DNA from: Rhodothermia bacterium
GTDB lineage: Bacteria; Bacteroidota; Rhodothermia; Balneolales; Balneolaceae
Direction of reading: 5' to 3'
DNA length: 64,000 nucleotides
Assembly (NCBI GenBank): GCA_030427885.1
Contig: JAUICM010000004.1
Location: forward strand, 62,001 to 126,000
In this document: positions 12,132 to 62,081 of the stretch, piece after piece
How the letters are laid out: each line of letters starts with the position of its first letter
How positions within the stretch are numbered: position 1 is the first letter of the stretch
Translations under genes and position numbers: made by a program
The notes under the pieces: model-generated
What the model was told of the DNA's origin: nothing
Databases searched by the model: none
What the model saw: only the letters and a program-made list of their open reading frames with translations

Positions 12132-13346
12132 ATGGCATTTCTTCCCGTAGAGGAGCAATTAGAGATCATTAAAAGAGGAACGGTTGAAATTGTTCCGGTT
12201 GAAGATCTGGTAGAAAAGCTCAAAAGATCAGTAAAAGAAAATAAACCACTTAAGATCAAACTAGGCGTTGACCCAACCCGACCCGATCTGCATTTGGGAC
12301 ACTCGGTAGTACTGCGAAAAATGCGCCAATTCCAGGATCTTGGCCACCATGCAATATTAATTATTGGTGGCTTTACCGCAATGATCGGCGATCCCACGGG
12401 TCAGAATACAACCCGGCCACCACTGACCGAGGAAGAAGTAGCAGAGAATGCGAAGTCTTATATCGAACAGGCGCAAAAGATCCTTGATACCACAAAGCTG
12501 GAGATCGTTAATAACAACGACTGGCTGGGTTCGATGAGTTTTATTGATGTCATAAGACTGACTTCAAAAACGACCGTGGCGAGGATGATTGAGCGTGATG
12601 ATTTCTCGAAAAGATTCAATAATAATGAGCCTATTTCTCTGCACGAATTTCTTTACCCATTAGCTCAGGGTCAGGACTCCGTTCATCTGGAAAATGACGT
12701 GGAGTTAGGAGGAACCGATCAGAAGTTTAATTTGCTGGTGGGACGTCAGCTTCAAAAAGACAGTGATATCGAGCCTCAGGTTTGTCTGATGATGCCGTTG
12801 CTGGTTGGCACGGATGGATCAGCAAAAATGTCGAAGTCATACGACAACTATATTGGTATTGATGAGAATCCTAATGATATGTACGGCAAGTCGTTATCGA
12901 TACCTGATGAGCTGATCTACAAATATTTTGAATTGGTTACAGATGTGCCTCTGGAGGAACTTCCCGGGATTCAAGAAAAAGCTGAAAGTGATCCAAGAAA
13001 TGCAAAGCATGATCTGGCATACGCTATCACCAAACTTTACCATGGAGAAGAAGCTGCTAAAGGTGCCCGAGAGCATTTCGAGCAAACCGTGATCAATAAA
13101 CAGGTTCCTGATTATGCTCCTGAATATCCAATTACAGCTGGTGAAGTAGTAAGAATCCTGGATATAATATCCGACCTGAACTTTTCATCCAGCAATGGTG
13201 AAACCAAGCGCTTAATTAAACAGGGCGGTGTAAGTATAGATGATGAAAAAGTAAGTGATATCGGCCTGGAATTGACATTGGAATCTGGTGAAGAGAAAGT
13301 CCTCAAGGTAGGTAAAAGAAAATACGCCGTACTTAAAGGAGCATGA
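12132..13346 (+). CDS. tyrS: tyrosyl-tRNA synthetase
   Basis: Class I aminoacyl-tRNA synthetase that charges tRNA-Tyr. HLGH is at residues 54-57 and KMSKS near 235, with [13 protein letters not shown] between them and LGGTDQKFN in the catalytic core. The C-terminal S4-like RNA-binding domain (about residues 340-404) includes [15 protein letters not shown]. At 404 aa it is of the TyrZ-like bacterial type. Its last bases overlap the exonuclease III start. Confidence 0.97.
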
Positions 13347-14113
13347 TGCTCAGAATTAGTTCATATAATATTAACGGAATCAGAGCAGCTCACAGAAAAG
13401 GTGTTATGGATTGGATCAGCGAAACAGATCCGGACATAATATGTTTTCAGGAATTGAAGGCAAATATAGATCAGGTTCCGGATGAGTTGAAAGCGCTCGA
13501 TTACCATGAAGTGTATCATATTGCGGAGAAAAAGGGATATTCTGGAGTAGCTGTATACAGTAAGATCCAGCCGGAGATCACGAACATTGGTATGGGTGTT
13601 GAATGGATCGATAATGAAGGGCGTGTGGTGATGGCGGAATTCGATAAGTTCAGGTTATTCTCAGTGTATGTACCAAGTGGTTCCAGTAGTGAGCTACGTC
13701 AGGATATGAAAATGAAATTCCTGGACGATTTCACGAGGTTTGGGAAACAATTCATTGGGGATGATAAGCCAACAGTTTTTTGTGGAGATTTTAACATCTG
13801 TCATACCGAGATCGACATACATAATCCGGCGCAACAACAGAATACATCCGGCTTCTTACCAGAAGAGCGGGAATGGTTTACAGATTTTCTGGACCTTGGA
13901 TATAATGATGTATTCAGAGAACTTCATCCCGGAGAGAAGGATTTGTACTCGTGGTGGAGTTACAGGGCTGCATCGAAGCAGAGAAATAAGGGCTGGAGAA
14001 TTGATTATCATCTCGCAACACCAGCGCTGGCCGAAAAAGCAAAAGCAGCGGTAATAGAAAAAGATTGGGATATGTCAGACCATGTACCTGTAACCATTGA
14101 TTATGATATCTAA
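13343..14113 (+). CDS. xth: exodeoxyribonuclease III (AP endonuclease)
   Basis: EEP-family nuclease that cleaves abasic sites and trims 3' ends in base-excision repair. Motifs in order: [12 protein letters not shown] (metal-binding Asn), CFQELKA (catalytic Glu), [23 protein letters not shown] and the C-terminal SDHVPV with the catalytic His. It has 256 aa, the usual length. The start overlaps the tyrS stop (ATGATG), so Met1 or Met2 may be used. Confidence 0.96.
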
Positions 14114-46504: not shown

Positions 46505-46581
46505 GCGCCCGTAGCTCAACTGGATAGAGTACCAGGTTTCGGCCCTGGGGGTTGGGGGTTCGAACCCCTCCGGGCGTACCA
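46505..46581 (+). tRNA. tRNA-Arg (anticodon TCG), likely island attachment gene
   Basis: The acceptor GCGCCCG pairs with CGGGCGT (a G1-U72 wobble). D-stem GCTC/GAGT, anticodon stem CCAGG/CCTGG and loop TTTCGGC give anticodon TCG. The T-arm is GGGGGTTCGAACCCCTC (one G-U), the discriminator is A, and CCA is encoded (46579-46581). The gene marks the boundary between core chromosome and the A/T-rich accessory island. Confidence 0.95.
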
Positions 46582-46767: not shown

Positions 46768-48969
46768 TTAAGGGTTGAGATATTTAAAAGATTGATATGG
46801 AATATTTTCATAGAACTTTAAATATGTATCAATTTCCTGAATTTCAGCTTTAAGCAATAACTCGTTATAGTCTTTTAAATCATCTTCGATTTTTTTTATT
46901 TCAGCTTGATAATCTTTTTCTAAACTATCCACACACTCATCAAGAAAGGATTGTGTATTTCTCCAATAAGGTTCTATATACTCATTAATAATTCGATTGT
47001 AATATCCATCTTCGTTTAGATGTTTTACTACTTGTTTAGCTAGTCTTGATTTCCAACTTTCTCCGAAAATCGCTTTAACAACAAAACCAACAATTGCGCC
47101 AATAGCTATGAAAATAGTAATAGGCCCCCCGATTGCTGCAATGAAAGAAGCGGCGGAGCCAACTCCCCCAACACTAATTCCTATTGCTGAAAGTAGAGAA
47201 ACAAGCTTTGCCGTCACAATATAGCCGCCTAAATTGCCTAAAGTCGAAGCCCAAAAAGCGAAAGCACTTGCAGTAGCTAGTCCAGTTAATCCCCCTGCAA
47301 AAGATCCATAAGCATCGAATGTAGGGGCAATTTTTACATCAAGTTGCGAATTAATTTTTTCGAAATGATCATTATAATTACTGACATACTCATTAACATG
47401 CTGAGAAAAAGCTTCAGAATTTGTTTCTAAAATGACTCGTAATTTATCATTCAATAAATCAGATATGTAGCTAATGATAAGGTTCGAGGCTTCTTTTTTA
47501 TTATTGTAGTTATCGTCAATTTTGGACTGAACAAAATCTTTTTCAACAACTTCATTATAGACTTTTTTCCAACTCTCTTTACACTCTTTCTCAAGTTCTG
47601 AAACTTTAATTTTTAAGTTAACGAATGCGCTTTCAATTTCTTCCTTTCTAACGGGTTCTTCTGCGACCAATTTTTCCAAGAAGTTTCTTAGGGCTTCCTT
47701 TTGATTTAAAATTGAAGTCTTATATTGAAGTAGTTTCTTCAAATCATTTATTCTAGAATCAATGAACTCTTTGATTAATGAATAAGATGCAGGAATTTTA
47801 AGTTTGGGTAATTTGATATTGAGGAACAAATAAAGCTTTTTCTCCAAAGCCTTTCTTCTCCTCTCTATTTCAAAGTAAAATGGACTTATTCTATTTGCTA
47901 ATAGTTCAGGGGTAATTCCTGAGGTTTGTTGTTCAATTTTCCTTGTTGATTCAAAATCTTTGATATAGTTATAGAACCTATTAGAAGACCGGTCAATGAT
48001 TTTTTCAATTTCAGCGTCGCTAATTCCTTGGTGTGCATGAGAAGCAATAAGAATTAAGTTATCCAGCGCTGATTCTACTTTTACCCCTCCTGAATGATAC
48101 TTAAGTCGATTAATTAAGGAATTAATATACGTTAAGTCCTTCGAGTCTATGAACCCTTTCGTATCACTTAAATAAATTAAGGAATCAAATTCAGAAAGAA
48201 CGGTATCTGCTTTTAAAGCATTAATATCATCTTCAGATTCTGCATTGCCAGGGGCATCACAAAGTATTACTGAATCTAGTATTTTAGCATTTGAATATAG
48301 GACTGCAACCAAGGGTTCGGAGTCTTGAGGAGCATTATCAATAGAATACTTAGAGAGAGTAGCTTTATTACCTGTTTCAATTATCCAATCGTCTGAAATT
48401 TGGTTTGCTAAAAACTTATCAATTGAAAAATTTTTATTAAAAATAATAACATCATCTTTATCTGTCTTCAGTTTGTATTTGCTATGGACTACAAATGTTA
48501 CCAATGCAGTTTCTGGTTGGTAGCCACTATTTAATACTTCATCGCAAAGTAATTTATTTATTAGGAATGATTTACCGGAGTCAAATTGTCCTCGTAGGCA
48601 TACTATAGGGGGCTTAAGAGACTTAGTTATATGAGACCTTAGGGAATCTATACTCTTCAACTCGGATTTATTAAAGGCTATCTCGGCGAGATTAGCATTG
48701 ATATAATTATCCGTAAGATTGGCTTTGTCGAATAATTCAGAATATGGATTTGACCAAATTTCGTTGAACCCCTCCGTTTCTTGAAAAAAATAGTTTATAT
48801 CAACTCCCAAGGCATTACTAACATAGAATAAGTGCTCTGCAGAAATTGATTTTAAATTAAAATCATCACTTTCATATTTGGATATTTGGCCCTGAGAAAT
48901 GCCAGATCTCTCAGAAAGGTCTTTCTGATTCATTCTGGCATTTTCCCGAGCCTTTCTAATCTTATTCAT
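46768..48969 (-). CDS. XRE-type HTH fused to a dynamin-like GTPase
   Basis: 733 aa from the ATG at 48969 (MNKIRKARENARMNQKDL); an open extension to 49080 has no family sequence. Residues 3-62 are a Cro/CI-type helix-turn-helix. A dynamin-family GTPase domain follows, with P-loop GQFDSGKS at 127-134 and the G3 motif DAPG (CDAPGNAES) near residue 240. The rest is long coiled-coil helices with two hydrophobic segments at residues 551-635 (Gly/Ala-rich), as in membrane-inserting bacterial dynamins, and a C-terminal coiled coil. The G4 motif is not classical. It is first gene of the island and alone on the minus strand. Bacterial dynamins protect envelopes and some serve in phage defence; the HTH fusion suggests self-regulation or DNA-linked control. 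Confidence 0.75.
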   Translation of the reverse strand: MNKIRKARENARMNQKDLSERSGISQGQISKYESDDFNLKSISAEHLFYVSNALGVDINYFFQETEGFNEIWSNPYSELFDKANLTDNYINANLAEIAFNKSELKSIDSLRSHITKSLKPPIVCLRGQFDSGKSFLINKLLCDEVLNSGYQPETALVTFVVHSKYKLKTDKDDVIIFNKNFSIDKFLANQISDDWIIETGNKATLSKYSIDNAPQDSEPLVAVLYSNAKILDSVILCDAPGNAESEDDINALKADTVLSEFDSLIYLSDTKGFIDSKDLTYINSLINRLKYHSGGVKVESALDNLILIASHAHQGISDAEIEKIIDRSSNRFYNYIKDFESTRKIEQQTSGITPELLANRISPFYFEIERRRKALEKKLYLFLNIKLPKLKIPASYSLIKEFIDSRINDLKKLLQYKTSILNQKEALRNFLEKLVAEEPVRKEEIESAFVNLKIKVSELEKECKESWKKVYNEVVEKDFVQSKIDDNYNNKKEASNLIISYISDLLNDKLRVILETNSEAFSQHVNEYVSNYNDHFEKINSQLDVKIAPTFDAYGSFAGGLTGLATASAFAFWASTLGNLGGYIVTAKLVSLLSAIGISVGGVGSAASFIAAIGGPITIFIAIGAIVGFVVKAIFGESWKSRLAKQVVKHLNEDGYYNRIINEYIEPYWRNTQSFLDECVDSLEKDYQAEIKKIEDDLKDYNELLLKAEIQEIDTYLKFYENIPYQSFKYLNP

Positions 48970-49419
48970 TAAAGTTAAGAACTGATTTAATATTTGATGG
49001 AGTTGATAATTATGCACCACTGATCTAATAAACAAAAACCAAAAATAGAGTAGTGCTCCCTCCCTTTTTTCTTTTCGCAAGAAATAATAAGAAGAGGACT
49101 TCTCATTTTTCTGATTCCAGAATAATTATTTGTATCTGTTTAGCAATAGTTAAAATTGCACCAGCAATTATGAGTACTTTTTTCATGAGTTTTAGGAGTT
49201 TGATGAAAATTGACCTAAGAAATATATTGAATTATAATATTCTTACACAAATATTTTTTATACATAATTTTCTTTTCGTAATAATTTATTGAGTTAAAGA
49301 TGTTTTGGCCCAAATAAATGGAAGGAATCGAGCTCACTTTCCACCTCACAAAGACACCCCCCATAAGCGCTGGGGTTTAAAAGCACCCCCGCCATTAAAC
49401 TTTAACTAAAATCAAAACA
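48970..49419. other. non-coding stretch between the dynamin gene and the 115-aa gene
   Basis: 450 bases, very A/T-rich at first. It holds a weak small minus-strand ORF (separate entry) and, at 49340-49400, a C-rich leader with CCCC-ATAAGCGCT-GGGG that can form a small hairpin just before the 115-aa gene. Divergent promoters are expected here; no consensus -7 element was found. Confidence 0.5.
49103..49186 (-). CDS. possible 27-aa hydrophobic peptide
   Basis: The ATG at 49186 opens a frame reading MKKVLIIAGAILTIAKQIQI followed by IILESEK and a stop. One membrane-spanning helix with a basic start is predicted. It lies 133 bases upstream of the dynamin-like gene on the same strand. No ribosome-binding sequence is visible. 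It could be a small membrane peptide or toxin-like gene, or chance. Confidence 0.3.
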   Translation of the reverse strand: MKKVLIIAGAILTIAKQIQIIILESEK

Positions 49420-51669: not shown

Positions 51670-51789
51670 ACAGAATACTCGTTGGCTGAAAACTACATAG
51701 ATGTTCTCTTATAAGTAGAGTAATTTTCCTTTAAAAACCGTTTATTATAATGGTTGCAAAGCAAATCTCTAATTTTATTATCAGATAGT

Positions 51790-52104
51790 ATGAAGGGAGC
51801 AATACTATTAGCTGGGGTGTTTAGTTTTTTGGGGATGACTGAAATGCCTATTGGGTACTATACTTTTTTAAGAATCTATCTTACAATAATTAGTGGAGTA
51901 ATAGTTGTAAATGAACTCTCGAAGGAGAATAAAGTTACTGGTAAGGTCATTATGTTTACGGTTATAGGAATAGTATTTAATCCAATATTACCAGTTTATT
52001 TACATGATAAAGAATTATGGAGCCTAATTGATTTAATTGTTGGCGCTGTAATGTTAATTGAGGGTTTAAAACGAAAGAATGTAAAGGATGTCAATATCAG
52101 TTAA
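51790..52104 (+). CDS. small membrane protein (DUF6804-like)
   Basis: 104 aa from the ATG at 51790 (MKGAILLAGVFSFLGM); an upstream TTG at 51754 is less likely. Four predicted helices, with the motif PIGYYTFLRIY near residue 20, a pattern of DUF6804-type small membrane proteins that accompany accessory genes. Its end overlaps the TerB/J-domain gene by 17 bases, suggesting co-expression with the block that follows. Confidence 0.6.
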   Translation: MKGAILLAGVFSFLGMTEMPIGYYTFLRIYLTIISGVIVVNELSKENKVTGKVIMFTVIGIVFNPILPVYLHDKELWSLIDLIVGAVMLIEGLKRKNVKDVNIS

Positions 52105-52840
52105 CCTTAGCAAAGTTCTGGCGTTAATAAGCGTTGGTTTTAAAACCTATGGAATTGCTACTTCAATTCTATTGACCTGGTTAATGAAGGCTGATGGGAA
52201 AACATCAACTGATGAGCTTAAAATTCTCGACGACTATTTGCGTCAATTTGGACTTGAAGAAAATAGGGCTCTGATCTTCAAAATTGTTGATGACTTCGAC
52301 TATGATAGTATAGAATTTGCATCTGAAGTTCTTCGAAGAGAGCTGACAATAGAAGGAAAGAGACTTACAATGGATCTATTTTTGGGAATGGTAGTCGCTG
52401 ATGGATATATCACTTTTACCGAGATGTATGTGATCGAGTTCATTGCAGATTTATTTGGGTACTCTCCAGAAGTGTTAAATCAGATTTTTATTGAAGCAAC
52501 TGGCAGGCCAAAACTGGATCATGGTAACCCCAGTTCGAAGTTATGGTGGGAGAATAGAAATAAAAGATCATCTTATGAACGGAATGAGAAGCAAGAACAA
52601 GAAAAAAATAAGCAACAAAGCGCTTATGGGAACACAACTTCCCTTAAGAGGCAGCAGTCCTTTGCAATACTTGGGTTAGATGTTTCTGCAACACAAAAAG
52701 AGATAAAAGATGCGTTTAGGCTTTTATCGAAAATTCATCACCCAGATCGTTTTCACAAATTGGGAGATGAAGCCAAAAAGAGTGCCAATAAAACATATAT
52801 ACGGATTAAGGATGCGTATGAATATTTGATGACAGCATGA
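52088..52840 (+). CDS. TerB-domain protein with C-terminal J domain (DjlA-like)
   Basis: 250 aa. A TerB-like helical domain (about residues 25-140, WLMKADGKTSTDELKILDDYLRQFG, then GMVVADGYITFTEMYVIEFIADLFG) is followed by a charged linker and a J domain from residue 190 to the end, with HPD at 218-220 (KIHHPDRFHKLGDEA). The layout equals DjlA without its membrane anchor. J domains recruit DnaK. It overlaps its neighbours on both sides: 17 bases with the small membrane gene, 4 bases (ATGA) with the J-like gene. It is taken as an accessory part of the TerB/ATPase/helicase block. Confidence 0.82.
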   Translation: MSISVNLSKVLALISVGFKTYGIATSILLTWLMKADGKTSTDELKILDDYLRQFGLEENRALIFKIVDDFDYDSIEFASEVLRRELTIEGKRLTMDLFLGMVVADGYITFTEMYVIEFIADLFGYSPEVLNQIFIEATGRPKLDHGNPSSKLWWENRNKRSSYERNEKQEQEKNKQQSAYGNTTSLKRQQSFAILGLDVSATQKEIKDAFRLLSKIHHPDRFHKLGDEAKKSANKTYIRIKDAYEYLMTA

Positions 52841-53838
52841 AAAATTTATATAAGAGCTTAAATATTAATCCGAATGCTTCAGTAGCTGAGATTCAAAGAG
52901 CAGTAAAAACGGCAGTTGGCTCTTCATCCTCAATTGATGCTGAATATGTATTATTGAACAATGACAGAAGAAGGGTATTTGATCGATGTAATGATACTCT
53001 TATAAATATAGGAAAGCTTAGATCGAATCTTGGGTTGGAAAGAGGGGGAAACTGGGTAAGTCAGAACTTTACTGGGTATACATTCAAGGCGACAAGGAAT
53101 GGGTCAATAATTGATGAGATTATCAATCAGCCTCGTAACAGAAGAGTAGATTTCAATCAAACGGGAGCAAGAGATGAAGCATCAAAAACCTCAGAATCAA
53201 AATCTGGAATTGAAGTAAGGGGGGAGCCGGCACTTTCACCTGGGGGACAGGCTTTTCTATTTCTTATCACAATCTTGGTTATAGGGATAATAGTTATAGG
53301 CTATATGGAAGAGGATAACTTATCAAACTCCAATTCTTATACTGGGCAATCTAGTTCCCCCTCAATATCTGGTTCCGAACAAAATAATTTACCAGGAGTG
53401 ATTGCTGAACAGCCTGATGAGAATGTATTTAACAAGCAGCCAAGTCCACTCCCTGTTAATGGGTATGTTCGTAATTATACGTCGAGAGAAGCCTTAGCTC
53501 CTTTAGAAATACATGTCCCAAGGTTTTCGAATCACTACTTTGTAAAGCTTGAAAATTATTATTCAGGAAGTATAGATTTTATAATTTTTATTCGAGGCGG
53601 ACAGTTTGTAGAAGTTGAAGTACCTTTAGGTACTTATATAATAAAATATGCAACAGGTAAAGACTGGTACGGTGTTGTAGACTTATTCGGTCCTGGTGAC
53701 ATGACTAGAAAATATAAAGCAGAAGATATTTTCGTTTTCAAAGAAGAGTACTACCAGTACACCGGATACACAATTGAATTAATTGAACAAGTTGGGGGAA
53801 ATCTTAGAACAAGCCAATTATCAGATAGTGATTGGTAA
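52837..53838 (+). CDS. membrane protein with degenerate J-like N-terminus
   Basis: 333 aa. Residues 1-55 resemble a J domain (LYKSLNINPNASVAEIQRAVKTA, then LLNNDRRRVFDRC) but the HPD motif is missing. Residues 138-157 form one membrane helix. The last 150 residues make a beta-rich domain with the segments FVKLENYYSGSIDFIIFIRGG and YIIKYATGKDWYG. It is coupled to the TerB/J-domain gene by a four-base overlap. A gap of 134 bases separates it from the TerB-N/TerB-C gene. Function unknown; likely a membrane partner of the co-chaperone gene. Confidence 0.65.
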   Translation: MKNLYKSLNINPNASVAEIQRAVKTAVGSSSSIDAEYVLLNNDRRRVFDRCNDTLINIGKLRSNLGLERGGNWVSQNFTGYTFKATRNGSIIDEIINQPRNRRVDFNQTGARDEASKTSESKSGIEVRGEPALSPGGQAFLFLITILVIGIIVIGYMEEDNLSNSNSYTGQSSSPSISGSEQNNLPGVIAEQPDENVFNKQPSPLPVNGYVRNYTSREALAPLEIHVPRFSNHYFVKLENYYSGSIDFIIFIRGGQFVEVEVPLGTYIIKYATGKDWYGVVDLFGPGDMTRKYKAEDIFVFKEEYYQYTGYTIELIEQVGGNLRTSQLSDSDW

Positions 53839-53972: not shown

Positions 53973-56312
53973 ATGGGTACATTCTTAATAGTTTGCTTTA
54001 TTTGCTTCATTATATATCAGATATTTAAATCTGATGGAAGTCGGACTTTAGATAGGCCTAGTGAAAGAAAGCAAGTTGAGCATGGCTCACGAAATAAATC
54101 GGTAAATAATTTATATAGTTCCAATAATGAACCTAAGGCTTCTAGAGGTTCATTTTCGCATATTGATAAAATAGCAAGTGGAGAGAGAACTCAGAAATTA
54201 ACTACTAATTCAGACATACTGTGGGTTAGAAAAGATAGACCAATAAAAATTCAAGGCTATCATTTGGTTGAGGGCTTGATATATGTTGGTGAGAATTTGT
54301 CTACAATCGATAGCAGAAGTTACTGGAGAGAAGTTGAGCCATCTCTAGTTAACCCAAAACTTAGGGTTAATAAGCAAAATCCGGATTATGAAGGAAAGTC
54401 GTTAGGATATTGGTCATCTTATAAAACGATCTCTAAGGAAGCTAGGGCCGCATATTTGGAGTGGTTGGCTAGCAATCGAGATGATCCTGCAACTCCAATA
54501 GGGTTTGTTTTTTTATACTATTATGGATTAGAAAGAAGAGTTTTGTATGACATTGAGAGTTGGGGCGATAAATATGGTGAGCTTCCTTTAATTATTGAAG
54601 AAGTTAAAAGGCTTAGAAATATTTATTCTGATAATTCTTCATTCGAGCGATATAGCCGATCATTTCTTGAGTACTTAACATTTCAGGATGATATAGGAAA
54701 TAAGCTTATTGAAGCAGTAAATCAGGAAGAGTTAGACTACACAAAGTATGAGAATTCTTACTATGAGGCAGGTCTGAACTTTAGATTGGTTTTAGCATAT
54801 TACTCATTAAATCAAATCCCTCTTCCACCTAGAGTGGCTTTAAAATGGGGTATTTGGAATAAGTCCTTGAGGACTCCAGCAACTAGATGTAAAAAGGAAT
54901 TCCAGAAATTATTTGAGGAAAAGTATAAAGAAAGGTTCGGCAAAGGAGACATCGTAAAGCCTAACAAAAAGAAAATTTTCTTTTCCTATCATCCTGCCAG
55001 TAATTCATTTGGATACCAGAATCGGTTTAAACTAGATATCGACATTCCAGATTTGTTGAATTTGGAAAGTAAGCCACGAAAATATTATTCGATTGTTGAA
55101 GAATGTATATATGAGCTTGATGCTTACAGTAGGAGATTAGGTAGGGGGGCTGATCCGAACGACATTCAGGCATTGTCACAACTTCCAAAAAGATTATTAG
55201 TGGATAAAATTGATCAAAGTTTGCGTTTGTTTATTGAAGAAGTAGAATCAGATTTAACTAATGATTTGTTTGTTTTTAAAAATTCTGCGGATTTAATCAA
55301 ACTTTGGAATAAGGGCGTTGATTCAAAGTTGACTAAAAAGGAATCTGTAGAAATGGCTCAATTCTTTTCAAAGTTTGACCTAGGGCTTGAACCCGATGCT
55401 AGATTCGATAATTCTAAAGTAGAATCAGGTAATGGGGTAATTTTCTTTAAAGTTGAAGGATGGCTCTCACCAAAGAAACCATCAAAGGAATACAAGTCAG
55501 CACTTACTATATTGCACCTTAGTGTTGTAGTAGGTCTGGCAGATGGTGTTTTCAAGAAAGAGGAGAAAGACTATTTAGAATCTTATATCGAAGAGCTTTT
55601 TAAACTAACAGGGGAAGAAAAAAAGCGTCTCCACTGCTACTTAGTCTGGTTAGAACAAAGTGATCCAACTGTAAGAGGGTTGAAATCTAAGCTAGACCAA
55701 ATGACTTATAGGGATAAGGAATCTATTCTTTTCTATTTAGTTAAGCTTTCTGATGCTGATGGGTATATACACCCCAAAGAAGTAGAAATGCTACAGAAAT
55801 TGGCAAATATTTTTGAGATTGATAAACAGAAAGTATTTAGTCTAATTCATTCAGTTCAGGCCAATGATGACGAACCAATATTGGTTAAGAATAAAGATGA
55901 AGCGATAGGATACCGCCTTCCTACGCAGCCTAATGTAAATGAATTAAATAAGGATACTATAACGAAAACATTGAAAGAGACAGAAGAAATTCAAAGTATT
56001 TTGAGTGATATTTTCAATAACGAAGATGATGAAATTCAAACCCCAGAACCAAAGACGGAACAAGCTGATAAAGTTGGTAAACCACTACTTGCTATTGATG
56101 AATACCATTCTAATCTCCTTTCTAAGTTACTCGAAAAAGACGAATGGGACAGAGATGAATATGAAGAACTTTGTTCTGAACTTAATTTGTTTCCCGAAGG
56201 TGCTTTAGAGATTATAAATGAATCATCTTTTAACGCTTACGATGATGAACTGCTCATTGATAACGGTGTGATTATTATTAACAGAGAACTCTTACAAATC
56301 AATAATGGCTAG
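53973..56312 (+). CDS. membrane-anchored TerB-N/TerB-C protein (Shango SngA-like)
   Basis: 779 aa. An N-terminal membrane helix (residues 2-18) precedes a TerB-N domain at about 70-290 (WVRKDRPIKIQGYHLVEGLIYVGE, then YLEWLASNRDDPATPIGFVFLYYYGLERR). A TerB domain with two metal-type repeats (VVGLADGVFKKEEKDYLESYIEEL and KLSDADGYIHPKEVEMLQKLANIF) lies at about 505-640, and an acidic TerB-C region follows. Proteins of this layout occur with ATPase and helicase genes in the Shango anti-phage system. The stop overlaps the ATPase start by eight bases, so the two are translationally coupled. Confidence 0.85.
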   Translation: MGTFLIVCFICFIIYQIFKSDGSRTLDRPSERKQVEHGSRNKSVNNLYSSNNEPKASRGSFSHIDKIASGERTQKLTTNSDILWVRKDRPIKIQGYHLVEGLIYVGENLSTIDSRSYWREVEPSLVNPKLRVNKQNPDYEGKSLGYWSSYKTISKEARAAYLEWLASNRDDPATPIGFVFLYYYGLERRVLYDIESWGDKYGELPLIIEEVKRLRNIYSDNSSFERYSRSFLEYLTFQDDIGNKLIEAVNQEELDYTKYENSYYEAGLNFRLVLAYYSLNQIPLPPRVALKWGIWNKSLRTPATRCKKEFQKLFEEKYKERFGKGDIVKPNKKKIFFSYHPASNSFGYQNRFKLDIDIPDLLNLESKPRKYYSIVEECIYELDAYSRRLGRGADPNDIQALSQLPKRLLVDKIDQSLRLFIEEVESDLTNDLFVFKNSADLIKLWNKGVDSKLTKKESVEMAQFFSKFDLGLEPDARFDNSKVESGNGVIFFKVEGWLSPKKPSKEYKSALTILHLSVVVGLADGVFKKEEKDYLESYIEELFKLTGEEKKRLHCYLVWLEQSDPTVRGLKSKLDQMTYRDKESILFYLVKLSDADGYIHPKEVEMLQKLANIFEIDKQKVFSLIHSVQANDDEPILVKNKDEAIGYRLPTQPNVNELNKDTITKTLKETEEIQSILSDIFNNEDDEIQTPEPKTEQADKVGKPLLAIDEYHSNLLSKLLEKDEWDRDEYEELCSELNLFPEGALEIINESSFNAYDDELLIDNGVIIINRELLQINNG

Positions 56313-57621
56313 TAACAGAATAAAAGCAAAAGAAAAAGATGCTATTCTACAATCATTACGTGCAGGAGTAGTACCAAGTATTGGACTACAACACATACAA
56401 GTTGGCCGGAATGAAGAAATCAAAGCGTTGATCAAGGATATTGATCGAATCAATTCAGGAGGGTCGGCCATTCGTTTTATTATTGGAGAGTATGGGGCTG
56501 GAAAAACCTTTTTCCTTCATCTAATCCGAACGATCAGTCATCAAAAAAATCTGGTTACTATACATGCTGACCTTGCTCCAGATCGAAGAGTACATGCCTC
56601 TGCTGGTCAAGCGCGTAATTTGTATGCTGAGCTAATGAAAAATATGGCTACCAGAACAAAACCTGAGGGTAGTGCTTTATCGAACTTAGTTGAGAAGTTT
56701 ATTAGCAAGGCAATGAATGATGCCCGAACTAGCGATAAGAGTGTTGACAGCATCATACATGATAAGCTTGAAAAAGTAAAAGAAATGGTGGGTGGATATG
56801 ATTTCGCTGAGGTGATTAATTCATACTGGGAAGGTCATAATACTGGAAACGAGGAATTAAAAAGTGACGCAATTAGATGGCTTCGTGCGGAATTTTCAAC
56901 AAAAACAGATGCTAGAAACGCCCTTGGTGTCCGAACAATCATTGATGACACCAATGTGTATGATCAATTGAAGTTACTAGCTCTTTTTGTTCAAATTGCA
57001 GGTTATGATGGTTTGATGATCGGGCTGGATGAGATGGTAAACCTTTACAAGCTCAACAGTGGTGTTGCCCGGAGAAATAATTATGAACAAATCCTACGAA
57101 TTCTGAATGACTGCCTGCAAGGCAATGTTTCTGGTTTTGGATTTATTCTGAATGGCACACCTGACTTCATGATGGATACCCGCAAAGGCTTATATAGCTA
57201 TGATGCTTTACAAACTCGCTTAGCGGAAAACAGGTTTGCTGCAATTGCGGGGGTCAGAGATTTAAGTGGCCCCATAATCAGACTGAACAACCTTCAGCCA
57301 GAGGACATCTACATTCTTTTGAAAAATATTCGGCATGTATTTGCTGAAGGAATCCAAAGTGACTATTTAATTCCTGATGAAGCTTTAGAAGCATTTTTAA
57401 AGCACTGTCAAAAGCAAGTTGGAGAAGCCTATTTTCAAACTCCAAGGAATACAATACGCGCCTTTGTAGACTTGTTATCCATTTTAGAGCAAAACCCAAA
57501 TCTGGATTGGAAACAACTATTAGGAGCAGTAGAAATTGAACAAGACAAAGGACAAAAACTTTCTGATTTAGAAGAAGTTATTGATGATGAAGATGACGAG
57601 TTGTCTGATTTCAGCCTTTAA
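56305..57621 (+). CDS. BrxD-like P-loop ATPase (Shango SngB-like)
   Basis: 438 aa AAA-type ATPase of the DUF2791/BrxD kind. Walker A GEYGAGKT is at residues 61-68 and Walker B LMIGLDE near 238-243, with the family opening ESLRAGVVP-like (LQSLRAGVVPSIGLQHIQVGR). BrxD-type ATPases pair with BrxHI helicases in type 2 BREX; here no PglX/PglZ is present and the partner is TerB, as in Shango. It overlaps the TerB gene and is followed two bases later by the helicase. Confidence 0.85.
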   Translation: MASNRIKAKEKDAILQSLRAGVVPSIGLQHIQVGRNEEIKALIKDIDRINSGGSAIRFIIGEYGAGKTFFLHLIRTISHQKNLVTIHADLAPDRRVHASAGQARNLYAELMKNMATRTKPEGSALSNLVEKFISKAMNDARTSDKSVDSIIHDKLEKVKEMVGGYDFAEVINSYWEGHNTGNEELKSDAIRWLRAEFSTKTDARNALGVRTIIDDTNVYDQLKLLALFVQIAGYDGLMIGLDEMVNLYKLNSGVARRNNYEQILRILNDCLQGNVSGFGFILNGTPDFMMDTRKGLYSYDALQTRLAENRFAAIAGVRDLSGPIIRLNNLQPEDIYILLKNIRHVFAEGIQSDYLIPDEALEAFLKHCQKQVGEAYFQTPRNTIRAFVDLLSILEQNPNLDWKQLLGAVEIEQDKGQKLSDLEEVIDDEDDELSDFSL

Positions 57622-57623
57622 AA

Positions 57624-59813
57624 ATGTCCATATCAGAAGAAAATAGATCCAACTCATTTGAATTGCTCGAAGAATCAATTCAACGATGGATCTGGAAAGA
57701 AAATTGGGCCCAGTTAAGAGATATTCAAGAGGAGGCAATACCATTAATACTGGAGGCAAAAAAAGATTTAATAATTGCGTCAGCAACCGCAAGTGGTAAA
57801 ACAGAAGCCGCATTTCTTCCCATTCTTTCAAACTGTATAACTGCAAGTTCAAGTGGGGTATTTGCTTTATATGTCGCTCCCCTTAAAGCATTGATAACAG
57901 ATCAAACATCTCGGTTAGAAGAAATTGCTCGTTATTCAAATACTGCTATAACTCCCTGGCATGGAGATGTCAGCCAGAACAAAAAAACAACTTTAATAAA
58001 AAATCCCAGTGGGGTTTTGCTCATTACCCCGGAATCTCTGGAGTCTGTATTCATTAATCATGGAACAAAGTTAAGGCATCTATTCTCAAATCTTTCCTAT
58101 GTTGTTATTGATGAGATGCATTCTTTCATTGGAGTAGAGAGAGGCAAACAATTACAATCACTTTTACAAAGGCTCGAAATTGTAGTTGGGAAAAATATCC
58201 CAAGAATCGGATTAAGTGCAACTTTAGGAGACCGTCAACTAGCCAAAAAATTTCTTCGTTGTACAGAAAACACTGATCAAATTGAGTACATAGAATCAAC
58301 ATCGTTTAAAAGTAATTTGAAACTACAGCTCAAGGGCTTTGTTAGTAAGAAGCCAGATTTGAATGCTGAGTCCATTGAGCTTCCCCCCTCTTATCATATT
58401 ACTGAACACTTATTCCAAAAACTAAGAGGTTCACACAATCTTATTTTTGCTAACTCAAGAAGCAATGTCGAATTATATGCCGATTTACTTCGTCAAAAAT
58501 GTGACCAAGAGAAAGTCCCATTGGAGTTTTATCCCCATCATGGAAACTTGTCGAAAAGTCTAAGAGAACATGTTGAAGCTGAATTAAAAAATAAATCCAA
58601 ACCCTCTTCCGCAGTCTGTACAACTACCTTAGAAATGGGAATCGATATTGGATCTGTAAAAAGTATCGCTCAGATTGGGTGTCCTCCAAGCGTGGCCAGT
58701 ATGAAGCAGCGTTTGGGAAGATCTGGAAGAAGAGATGAGGCTTCAATACTAAGAATGTACCAGATCGAGGCAGAGGTTGACAAACAAACTTCTATTCAGG
58801 ACAAGCTTCGAGCTGGCCTGGTTCAATCGGTTGCAATGACAAATTTAATGTTAGAAAAATGGGTTGAACCACCAAATTTAGACAACTTGCATTTATCAAC
58901 CCTTGTACAGCAAATACTTTCGATTATTGCCCAATATGGAGGTATAAGGGCAACGGAACTTTGGTATATATTGATTGAAAAAGGTGTTTTTAGTGGAATA
59001 AACAAACAAGATTTTAAGGAGCTGTTAACAAAACTGGGGCAGGATGAAATAATTACCCAGCAAAGCGACAAAACTTTAACTCTTGGAATAAAAGGCGAAA
59101 GTGTTGTTGGGCACTACTCTTTTTATGCGGTTTTTAAAACACCCGAGGAGTATACGATAATAGCTAACGGTAAGAATTTAGGATCATTGCCTGTGGAATT
59201 CCCTTTGATTGAGGGTACCTTTATAATCTTTGGAGGCAAAAGATGGGTTATTAAATCTATTGATGATGAGAAAAAGATCATTGAATTAGTTCGTTCCAAA
59301 GGCGGAAAACCACCCATTTTTAACGGCGAAGGACTTGGGGTTCATGATGAAATCCGCAAGGGTATGAGACTAGTTTATATGGATAGTTCAGTACCAATAT
59401 ACCTCGATTCCGTTGCTTCTGAGCTACTACAAGAAGGAAGAAAGTATTTTAATTACTATGATCTTGGTTCCTCAATGATCATAGATGATGGTGGTTCACT
59501 TTTATTTTTTCCGTGGAAAGGAACAACAATTATGAACACACTTCAGATACTGTTCGCCATGAATGGATTACAAGCGACAAATGAGGGGATTGCTATTTCG
59601 ATAGCTGGTATTACTCAAAAAGAATTTAACACATTATTGAATAAGATCTCTAAGACATCAGAAAGTGAGTTATTTGCCTTCTTGAAAAAGGTTAAAAACA
59701 AGGAAGTAGAAAAATATGATCACCTACTCCCTGAACAACTATTAACACTTTGTTATCAATCAAGATCTATTAACCTTGCAAATACTATTAGATTTTTACA
59801 CTCATACATCTAA
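57624..59813 (+). CDS. Lhr/BrxHI-like superfamily II helicase (Shango SngC-like)
   Basis: 729 aa. Helicase motifs: Walker A SATASGKT at residues 53-60, APLKAL, DEMH at about 163-166, SAT (LSATLGD), FANSRSNVE and the arginine-finger motif QRLGRSGRR near 362-370. The C-terminal half carries Lhr-type extra domains. It is taken as an ATP-driven DNA translocase or helicase with the neighbouring ATPase. The start is two bases after the ATPase gene. Resemblance to BrxHI is inferred from motif order and neighbour type. Confidence 0.87.
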   Translation: MSISEENRSNSFELLEESIQRWIWKENWAQLRDIQEEAIPLILEAKKDLIIASATASGKTEAAFLPILSNCITASSSGVFALYVAPLKALITDQTSRLEEIARYSNTAITPWHGDVSQNKKTTLIKNPSGVLLITPESLESVFINHGTKLRHLFSNLSYVVIDEMHSFIGVERGKQLQSLLQRLEIVVGKNIPRIGLSATLGDRQLAKKFLRCTENTDQIEYIESTSFKSNLKLQLKGFVSKKPDLNAESIELPPSYHITEHLFQKLRGSHNLIFANSRSNVELYADLLRQKCDQEKVPLEFYPHHGNLSKSLREHVEAELKNKSKPSSAVCTTTLEMGIDIGSVKSIAQIGCPPSVASMKQRLGRSGRRDEASILRMYQIEAEVDKQTSIQDKLRAGLVQSVAMTNLMLEKWVEPPNLDNLHLSTLVQQILSIIAQYGGIRATELWYILIEKGVFSGINKQDFKELLTKLGQDEIITQQSDKTLTLGIKGESVVGHYSFYAVFKTPEEYTIIANGKNLGSLPVEFPLIEGTFIIFGGKRWVIKSIDDEKKIIELVRSKGGKPPIFNGEGLGVHDEIRKGMRLVYMDSSVPIYLDSVASELLQEGRKYFNYYDLGSSMIIDDGGSLLFFPWKGTTIMNTLQILFAMNGLQATNEGIAISIAGITQKEFNTLLNKISKTSESELFAFLKKVKNKEVEKYDHLLPEQLLTLCYQSRSINLANTIRFLHSYI

Positions 59814-60690: not shown

Positions 60691-61584
60691 TTAGATAATG
60701 TAGGATGGCCTAAAAATTACTTCCAGAGTGTAACTGACTATTTCAATATGTGGTTCTAGTCTAGCATAATTAATTATGTCCTCACTCATTTTTTGCGCAC
60801 CACCATGAACAAGAATACCACGAGGTATCCTATTAGTTTCTTCTTTAAGTAATCTCATGTAGTGTCGTAATTGATCAATAGATTGATGACTTGGCCCATA
60901 CTGTTTGCATTCTACAATTACTGGATTATCCCTTTTGTCAATCAGAAGTACATCCAAGCGACTTCTATCCCTAAATACTTTTTCCCGGATCTTAGAATCT
61001 GGGTGTGGAAGTAAACCATCTTCTAAATAATTGGGATAATTAGAAATGTAATCAGACAATGCTTTTTCATACTTAAATTTTCCTAAAAGGCTAACCCAAT
61101 TAGTTGGATCATTCATCAAGTTTTTGATTTCATCAATTGAAAATGAGCTAACTCTTGAAATAGTATTCCTAAGTTCACCAGTTGTGAGTGTATTAGAACT
61201 CGGTAATTGGATCACCAAATCTTGATCATCTGGTCCTACCGTTAAATCCCATCTTACAAAAATCCTCCTCCCCATTTCTCCATCTTTTTCCAGTTCGCTT
61301 ACAGGAACTAAAGGGTTCCATTCATCATCATCTATCGCCTTACCTGTTATCTGGCCTATTCTTCCAATCCTGTGTCCTTGTAAAGCAACAATAACATGAT
61401 CGCCGATTTTCATTTCTTTAAGAGCTTTTCTAGCGACACTCCACCCTCTGTCTTTGGCTTTTCCACCCATATAAAACCCCCATTCACTGTACCACCCAAC
61501 TGCAACGCATTGATTCTTATACCAGCGCTGCCACATGCCTGGATATTTGTTTTCCATACAGTTTACTTTCCAAAGCGCACTCAT
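60691..61584 (-). CDS. EVE-like domain fused to NucS-like PD-(D/E)XK endonuclease
   Basis: 297 aa. Residues 1-125 resemble an EVE/PUA-like reader of modified bases (WKVNCMENKYPGMWQRW, then KEMKIGDHVIVALQGHRIGRIGQITG). Residues 160-297 form a NucS/EndoMS-like nuclease with Asp211, Glu225 and Lys227 (RSRLDVLL, VIVECKQYG) and the Q238-LRH-Y242 motif. It starts inside the end of the glycosylase gene (four-base ATGA overlap), so the two are one transcription unit. A modification-dependent DNA nuclease is the inferred role. It is convergent with the CoiA-like gene. Confidence 0.78.
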   Translation of the reverse strand: MSALWKVNCMENKYPGMWQRWYKNQCVAVGWYSEWGFYMGGKAKDRGWSVARKALKEMKIGDHVIVALQGHRIGRIGQITGKAIDDDEWNPLVPVSELEKDGEMGRRIFVRWDLTVGPDDQDLVIQLPSSNTLTTGELRNTISRVSSFSIDEIKNLMNDPTNWVSLLGKFKYEKALSDYISNYPNYLEDGLLPHPDSKIREKVFRDRSRLDVLLIDKRDNPVIVECKQYGPSHQSIDQLRHYMRLLKEETNRIPRGILVHGGAQKMSEDIINYARLEPHIEIVSYTLEVIFRPSYII

Positions 61585-62081
61585 TGATCCTCAATAACTT
61601 TCATAAGTTCAAACCAGTATTCTTCATCCCAAAATGCGTTAGCAGCACCCGATGTTGACGGCAAAATAAAAACTCGGATTCCTGCTAATCTTTCTGTAAA
61701 CAAACCATAGCCTATTTTCTTTGTGTTCCCATTCAGACCGAGCGCCCAGGCCGCTGATTTCTTGCCATTGAATGCCACAACAGTAGGTTTATATTTCTCA
61801 AGTTTAGAAATAAAGCCGCTAACATTAAAAGCCTGATTACTTAATGAGCTATCTGACCCAAATTGTGTTTTCACCAAGTCTGTTATTCCTATCCTAAAGT
61901 CCAATAATTTTGGATATTCCTGAGGGTCTAGAGAATATGGTGTTAATCCAATTTTGAAGAGAATTGAGTAAAACTTGTTTCCTGGGCCAGCATAATATGC
62001 ATCCATTTGCATTGATGTTGAACCTACTGCTGTACCGCAAAAAATTACTTTTAATCCCGGTTTCAAAAGATCAGATAACAT
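61581..62081 (-). CDS. Mug-family mismatch-specific DNA glycosylase (uracil-glycosylase fold)
   Basis: 166 aa. UDG-fold protein of the Mug group: motif 1 region VIFCGTAVGS (residues 13-21), AGPGNKFYSIL, IGITDLVKTQFG and motif B-like LPSTSGAANAFWDEEYW. E. coli Mug has INPG with a catalytic Asn at the motif 1 site; here the site reads GTAVG with no Asn, as in a distinct subgroup that I recall having GTAAG-type motifs. Substrate therefore uncertain. It is coupled to the EVE-nuclease gene. Confidence 0.82.
   Translation of the reverse strand: MLSDLLKPGLKVIFCGTAVGSTSMQMDAYYAGPGNKFYSILFKIGLTPYSLDPQEYPKLLDFRIGITDLVKTQFGSDSSLSNQAFNVSGFISKLEKYKPTVVAFNGKKSAAWALGLNGNTKKIGYGLFTERLAGIRVFILPSTSGAANAFWDEEYWFELMKVIEDQ

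Follow-up and report, generated by a model that had tools for sequence, protein, structure and literature searches.

A TerB-J protein and an HPD-less J-like membrane protein encoded by overlapping genes upstream of a Shango system

Described J-protein systems and the gene pair of the window

The mitochondrial proteins Pam16 (Tim16) and Pam18 (Tim14) are described as an HPD-less J-like protein and an HPD-bearing J protein that act at a membrane on one Hsp70, forming a stable complex through their J-like and J domains that lowers Hsp70 stimulation (PMC2695266, PMC13254874). A 2026 review calls this tandem enigmatic and raises the question of why J proteins lacking the HPD motif are retained (PMC13254874). 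In E. coli, DjlA is described as a membrane co-chaperone of DnaK that induces Rcs only with a working J domain and a membrane location, for which foreign transmembrane (TM) helices suffice; the role of its TerB domain is described as unknown (PMC11709261). CbpM is likewise presented as an operon-encoded regulator of a bacterial J protein, CbpA (PMC8215388). A full-text literature search, covering titles and the starts of abstracts, with few subscription journals among them, returned no description of a bacterial J/pseudo-J pair; as far as these searches show, the arrangement is known from mitochondria and is not described in bacteria.

The window, a stretch of 64,000 nucleotides (genome G000, contig C8, 62001-126000), carries two overlapping genes on the + strand. 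A sequence-only reading had taken them to encode a TerB protein with an HPD-bearing J domain and a membrane protein, which open reading frames, Pfam and one predicted TM helix confirm. The first gene (52088-52840) encodes P0001, a DjlA-like co-chaperone of 250 aa with a TerB domain at residues 24-131 (52157-52480; PF05099, E 7.5e-9) and a J domain at residues 192-248 (52661-52831; PF00226, E 2.5e-10), the latter scoring 40.8 bits and thus above the Pfam cut-off of 27.8. Its HPD motif, H218-P219-D220 (52739-52747), is read from the sequence and falls in invariant columns of alignment A8. TerB followed by a C-terminal J domain is the order of DjlA, as both Pfam and NCBIfam indicate, and the NCBIfam DjlA model matches P0001 at model positions 61-261 of 267 (E 1.5e-14, under the model's cut-off). 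The second gene (52837-53838), which shares 4 nt (ATGA) with the first, encodes P0002, a protein of 333 aa that was resolved by homology of its parts into a pseudo-J module, a TM segment and a predicted extracytoplasmic beta domain; as a whole it gave no match at E<=1 to any Pfam, NCBIfam or PADLOC model.

The genes of this region follow one another on the + strand in the order RadC-like (51196), DUF6804 (51754), P0001, P0002, SngA, SngB, SngC and CoiA-like (59823), with a tRNA-Arg gene upstream at 46505 and several accessory genes between it and this run. The DUF6804 gene (51754-52104; open reading frame, PF20619, E 6.5e-20) shares 17 nt with the start of P0001 and may belong to the same operon. 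This overlap, together with that between P0001 and P0002, makes it very likely that P0001 and P0002 are co-translated. By eye, a 770-aa protein near the tRNA-Arg gene (46768-49080) has a helix-turn-helix-like start and the look of a dynamin-like GTPase, and beyond the Shango genes the minus strand (60691-62081) encodes a NucS-like PD-(D/E)XK protein and a probable mismatch uracil-DNA glycosylase-like protein.

P0001 differs from DjlA as described (PMC11709261) in its lack of an N-terminal membrane segment, its start being directly the TerB domain in alignment A8. The frame is open for 251 aa, just one codon more upstream, and therefore leaves no room for an upstream extension of the protein. 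A TerB-J match at 1e-6 was found in 17 of 296 phylum genomes, the window genome included; alignment A8 was built from P0001 and these phylum TerB-J proteins. Among the 16 others, one (from genome G059, of a different class in the same phylum) is paired, four (L024, L027, L032 and L034) were dropped because no TerB region could be seen by eye, and 11 remain, unpaired in the sense that the short flanks fetched with them hold no second J-like ORF. All 11 carry a Gly-rich hydrophobic N-terminal segment of the DjlA type, which is missing from both P0001 and the TerB-J protein of G059. It therefore seems that the anchor of P0001 is supplied in trans; the start of P0001 is mildly hydrophobic (1.62, window from residue 10) and might touch the membrane by itself. 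No plasmid match to P0001 was found at 1e-5.

The shortened J-like module and the outer domain of P0002

The start of P0002 had also been read as J-like without an HPD motif, and this holds up in sequence comparisons. The HPD motif occurs nowhere in the protein, and its start falls on the J domain when it is aligned with proteins of J-TM-CTD architecture (CTD, the C-terminal domain described below). A profile of nine HPD J domains, with no window sequence among them, matched P0002 at 15.5 bits, with an E-value of 0.003 in a set of 3949 sequences (for the whole protein, 13.3 bits and E 0.015), the aligned part being residues 2-23 only; of 2000 shuffled control sequences, 1496 gave a reported score, none of them above 5.7 bits. 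A profile-profile comparison supported the J ancestry with a probability of 94.6% over 24 columns.

A homologue of the module is encoded by the second gene of the G059 pair (L033:1757-2143), the sole other non-HPD ORF at P0002's J-profile level among 1948 ORFs. Its product, a protein of 129 aa with an HPD-less J and a C-terminal TM segment, shares 32% identity with P0002 over 66 residues (z 12.4, with none of 2000 shuffles scoring as well). Identical residues occupy 23 of 83 alignment columns, among them L39-L40-N41, R44-R46 and D49. The G059 protein also resembles the HPD-bearing J domain found in L002 (z 10.3, again with none of 2000 shuffles reaching that score) and matches Pfam DnaJ at E 0.0017, below the cut-off. 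Searched alone, the G059 pseudo-J gave one unrelated match among PDB chains (E 0.67) and, against plasmids, DnaJ at E 0.3 and nothing else. A two-row profile of P0002 and the G059 protein was compared with all PDB chains, yielding 26 distinct sequences at E<=1, all 26 of them J proteins and 25 so by name; the matches are weak one by one (best E 0.017). One of them, 2cug (mKIAA0962), which we take to be a J protein, aligned over the helix I-II region and again over the 'LLN..RR..D' (helix III) stretch, leaving a gap of ~15 residues across the HPD region.

The distance from the start of helix II to the 'LLN' motif is 14 residues in P0002 and 13 in the G059 protein, against 24 (L020) and 29 (L004) in the HPD J domains counted. 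The HPD motif and its flanks were therefore deleted, not merely mutated, with a deletion of about 10-16 residues as counted from the alignments. This sets P0002 apart from Pam16, in which the HPD is described as replaced in place (PMC13254874). Together, the J profile, the G059 homologue and the PDB profile search show, by sequence comparison, that residues 1-66 of P0002 (52837-53034) descend from a J domain. Between the J domain of P0001 and the pseudo-J there is no measurable similarity (z 0.0), so that the two are not the outcome of a recent duplication. The J-fold check that the sequence-only reading had proposed for residues 1-60, run as an unguided AlphaFold model of residues 1-74 alone, gave a pLDDT of 55.8, with helices at 3-7, 16-27 and 33-64 in J-domain order at low confidence and no structural match, the sole PDB entry at E<=10 having E 6.3. 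Alignments A5 and A6 placed the J halves wrongly and were kept out of the folding.

Behind this module, a TM helix is predicted at about residues 138-159 (53248-53313) from hydropathy and from a helix at 135-161 in the model. Four K/R residues precede it and none lies within the 30 residues after it, a bias that suggests an N-in/C-out topology. The CTD, residues 205-333 (53449-53835), was recognised by tblastn and in the structure model, in which it forms a beta sandwich, most of it modelled with a pLDDT of about 90. TTR/CnaB-like domains are among its structural matches; the best match of any kind has Z 7.6 (rmsd 3.1, 85 residues aligned), a level that common arrangements also reach, and by sequence it found nothing in the PDB below E 0.5. 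Using tblastn, the CTD was found in 5 plasmid records, 2 same-order relatives and 12 loci in genome contigs (12 of 57 candidate stretches confirmed), giving 18 distinct loci when the two Acinetobacter plasmids with the identical protein WP_171285021.1 are counted once. No CTD beyond G299 itself was found among 118 genomes of the phylum of G299, and viral contigs held no match to either the pseudo-J profile or the CTD profile; among phages, one unannotated contig has a CTD match.

The CTD occurs in several architectures. It follows an HPD J domain and a TM segment in L003, L004, L009 and L020 and, in broken frames, in L002 and L010; a zinc ribbon and a TM segment in L012, L013 and L015; and a TM segment without a J domain in L011, L014 and L016. 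It is lipoprotein-like in L017 and fused to a retropepsin-like protease in L007. The Acinetobacter protein WP_171285021.1 has the architecture and outer domain of P0002 (42% identity over residues 202-329), differing in its intact HPD J domain (Pfam E 6.4e-19) and in having no TerB-J partner annotated beside it. At least 9 of the 18 loci tie the CTD to the Hsp70 system, either through an HPD J domain (L003, L004, L009, L020, L002 and L010), an Hsp70 gene nearby (L011 and L017) or an adjoining TerB-J gene (L012); the other nine show no such tie among the sequence listed. An unnamed envelope domain found across phyla is thereby linked to the Hsp70 system.

This spread of architectures bears on the possibility that the J-like N-terminus of P0002 has decayed into a functionless remnant and that the protein acts through its outer domain. 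J-free CTD proteins such as L011, L014 and L016 exist, and the intact J domain of relatives that share this CTD means that the ancestor could have had an HPD motif. Yet the same shortened form is found in G059, a member of another class, and must therefore be an old form rather than the product of local decay, for which reason we consider a functionless remnant distinctly improbable.

Three CTD loci have neighbourhoods of their own. In a Poribacteria MAG (L011:4149-10579), an Hsp70-like gene (855 aa), genes for proteins of 413 and 627 aa and the TM-CTD gene stand in a row, a possible Hsp70-centred envelope operon. The 413- and 627-aa proteins have similar 'NPFHILGA...PR.R' starts, J-like by eye and HPD-less; with hhalign their probability was 1.2% when compared to the J profile and 0.2% when compared to the pseudo-J pair, so they were not counted as pseudo-J. 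In Thiomicrospira (L014:5046-14908), the CTD gene lies among several Ser/Thr protein kinase genes, with FHA-like and TolQ-like genes by eye, and in a Psychrobacter MAG (L017:225-5212) the gene for the CTD lipoprotein-like protein faces genes for an AAA ATPase and an Hsp70-like protein (864 aa) on the opposite strand.

Recurrence of the pair and its relation to Shango

That a working and a degenerate J module stand side by side as a gene pair, as the sequence-only reading had put it, is matched in G059, where a TerB-J gene is followed by the HPD-less J gene with a similar overlap (8 nt). No DUF6804-sized counterpart lies in front of the G059 pair. Upstream of it is a gene with a weak, below-cut-off likeness to HEPN_Swt1, and IS3-like transposase genes (by eye) follow ~5 kb downstream (L065:4498-5829 and 12454-13649), so the G059 pair may likewise be part of a mobile region. 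A third setting is provided by L012, in which a zinc ribbon-TM-CTD gene is followed by a TerB-J gene starting at its stop or within about 17 nt after it. A TerB-J protein is thus combined with a membrane partner of the form pseudo-J-TM-CTD in the window, pseudo-J-TM in G059 and zinc ribbon-TM-CTD in L012; since the G059 partner lacks the CTD and the L012 partner lacks the pseudo-J, the three settings share just a TM partner and a TerB-J protein.

In its strict form the pair is rare: of the 296 genomes drawn from the phylum, 2 have it. No new pair was found in four further draws, which partly overlap: 159 genomes of the class of G059, with the pair in G059 alone; 128 of the window genome's own order; 229 gammaproteobacteria (0 of 229); and 82 of the phylum of G300. 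In the own-order draw, the window genome and G825 were matched, and in the phylum of G300 the match was G841; the proteins of G825 and G841 are ordinary DnaJ. The phylum search with the pseudo-J gave matches in 6 of 296 genomes, full-length in the window genome and G059, at E 0.006 in G166 and at E 0.009 in G047; the remaining candidates, G272 and G180, turned out to be HPD J proteins. Rarity, and a place among accessory genes after a tRNA-Arg gene, would fit two unrelated envelope-stress genes brought together by chance in a variable island. Because the overlapping pair recurs in G059 and a third variant exists in L012, we regard a chance association as extremely improbable.

Downstream of the pair lies a complete Shango system on the same strand: sngA, 134 nt after P0002 (53973-56312; TerB_N, TerB and TerB_C; PADLOC E 3.7e-74), sngB (56305-57621; E 7.7e-180) and sngC (57624-59813; E 3.6e-264). 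The sequence-only reading had noted TerB domains in both the pair and this core protein; TerB is present in P0001 and SngA and absent from P0002, and the P0001 and SngA TerB domains have no significant BLASTP similarity (best E 1.9). Shared strand, the short distance, the completeness of SngABC and TerB in both could make the pair an accessory part of this anti-phage system. SngB was found in 14 of 296 phylum genomes, the window genome included, and none of the 13 other Shango loci, one of which (G148) is a distant SngB match, had a P0001 or P0002 match (tblastn, E<=0.1) or a J domain (profile, ORFs of 60 aa or more); five of these 13 stretches are short upstream, L054 ending inside or just before sngA and L055, L058, L056 and L053 having about 1.0 to 4.3 kb. 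Moreover, G059 carries the pair without Shango, and the three Shango genes alone are reported to protect P. aeruginosa (PMC10250203). The tie that had been drawn between the pair and the downstream TerB core is thus not upheld: the absence of pair genes from the 13 loci indicates that the pair is a direct neighbour of Shango and not part of it, and an accessory role in Shango appears very unlikely.

A putative membrane-docked co-chaperone

When the gene of a TM-less TerB-J protein overlaps one for a TM protein that starts with a disabled J, the arrangement looks like DjlA split in two. The reading that we favour, with confidence about evenly divided, is a split, membrane-docked J co-chaperone resembling Pam16/Pam18, in which P0001 would be the working half and P0002 the docking half. 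P0001 would activate DnaK as a DjlA-like TerB-J protein minus its own membrane segment. P0002 would dock it at the inner membrane, with the shortened J-like module in the cytoplasm and the TTR/CnaB-like domain outside; with the HPD loop and the residues flanking it deleted, its pseudo-J would not be expected to activate DnaK. The two proteins are probably made together through their overlapping genes. Since Pam16 is described as stably binding Pam18 through its J-like domain, the pseudo-J offers a natural docking site and most likely binds P0001, keeping the working J at the membrane. The likeness to Pam16/Pam18 rests on the generic J relation and the pair arrangement, and the window pair differs in having its TM segment on the HPD-less partner, a TerB domain on the J partner and an outer beta domain.

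The main role of the pseudo-J could instead be inhibition, keeping P0001 from recruiting DnaK as CbpM acts on CbpA, with docking secondary. Pam16 is reported to lower Pam18-stimulated mtHsp70 ATPase activity in vitro (PMC2695266), CbpM is described as an operon-encoded J-domain blocker (PMC8215388), and the P0001 and P0002 genes overlap. CbpM differs from P0002, however, in that PMC8215388 does not describe it as J-like or as a membrane protein; the inhibition by yeast Pam16 is itself judged not critical (PMC13254874), and the missing membrane segment of the paired TerB-J proteins points to docking as the function needed. We therefore think a primarily inhibitory role unlikely.

Within the split co-chaperone reading, P0002 may control P0001 as well as dock it. 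The outer domain may act as a sensor of, or a binding site for, something in the envelope, and its state might set the activity of P0001, much as Pam16 binds and restrains Pam18; control of DnaK recruitment by a disabled J, the idea put forward in the sequence-only reading, is plausible on this comparison. A more specific version, which we advance tentatively and with less confidence than docking itself, is a J/pseudo-J heterodimer of the Pam18/Pam16 type that carries an envelope signal: the TTR-like outer domain, acting through one TM helix and the disabled J, would position or release the TerB-J protein and so decide where the single full-length DnaK acts. If true, this heterodimer would represent the switch of the mitochondrial import motor in a bacterial form, either convergent or ancestral. 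With two genes and a small J-like partner, such a bacterial system would allow the reason for retaining HPD-less J proteins to be tested with purified components and DnaK, and the role of TerB could be sought in the same pair. The partner Hsp70 would be the housekeeping DnaK. The Hsp70 set of the host consists of one full-length DnaK, one shorter Hsp70-like match and one match below cut-off, and its Pfam J domains are two, those of DnaJ and P0001.
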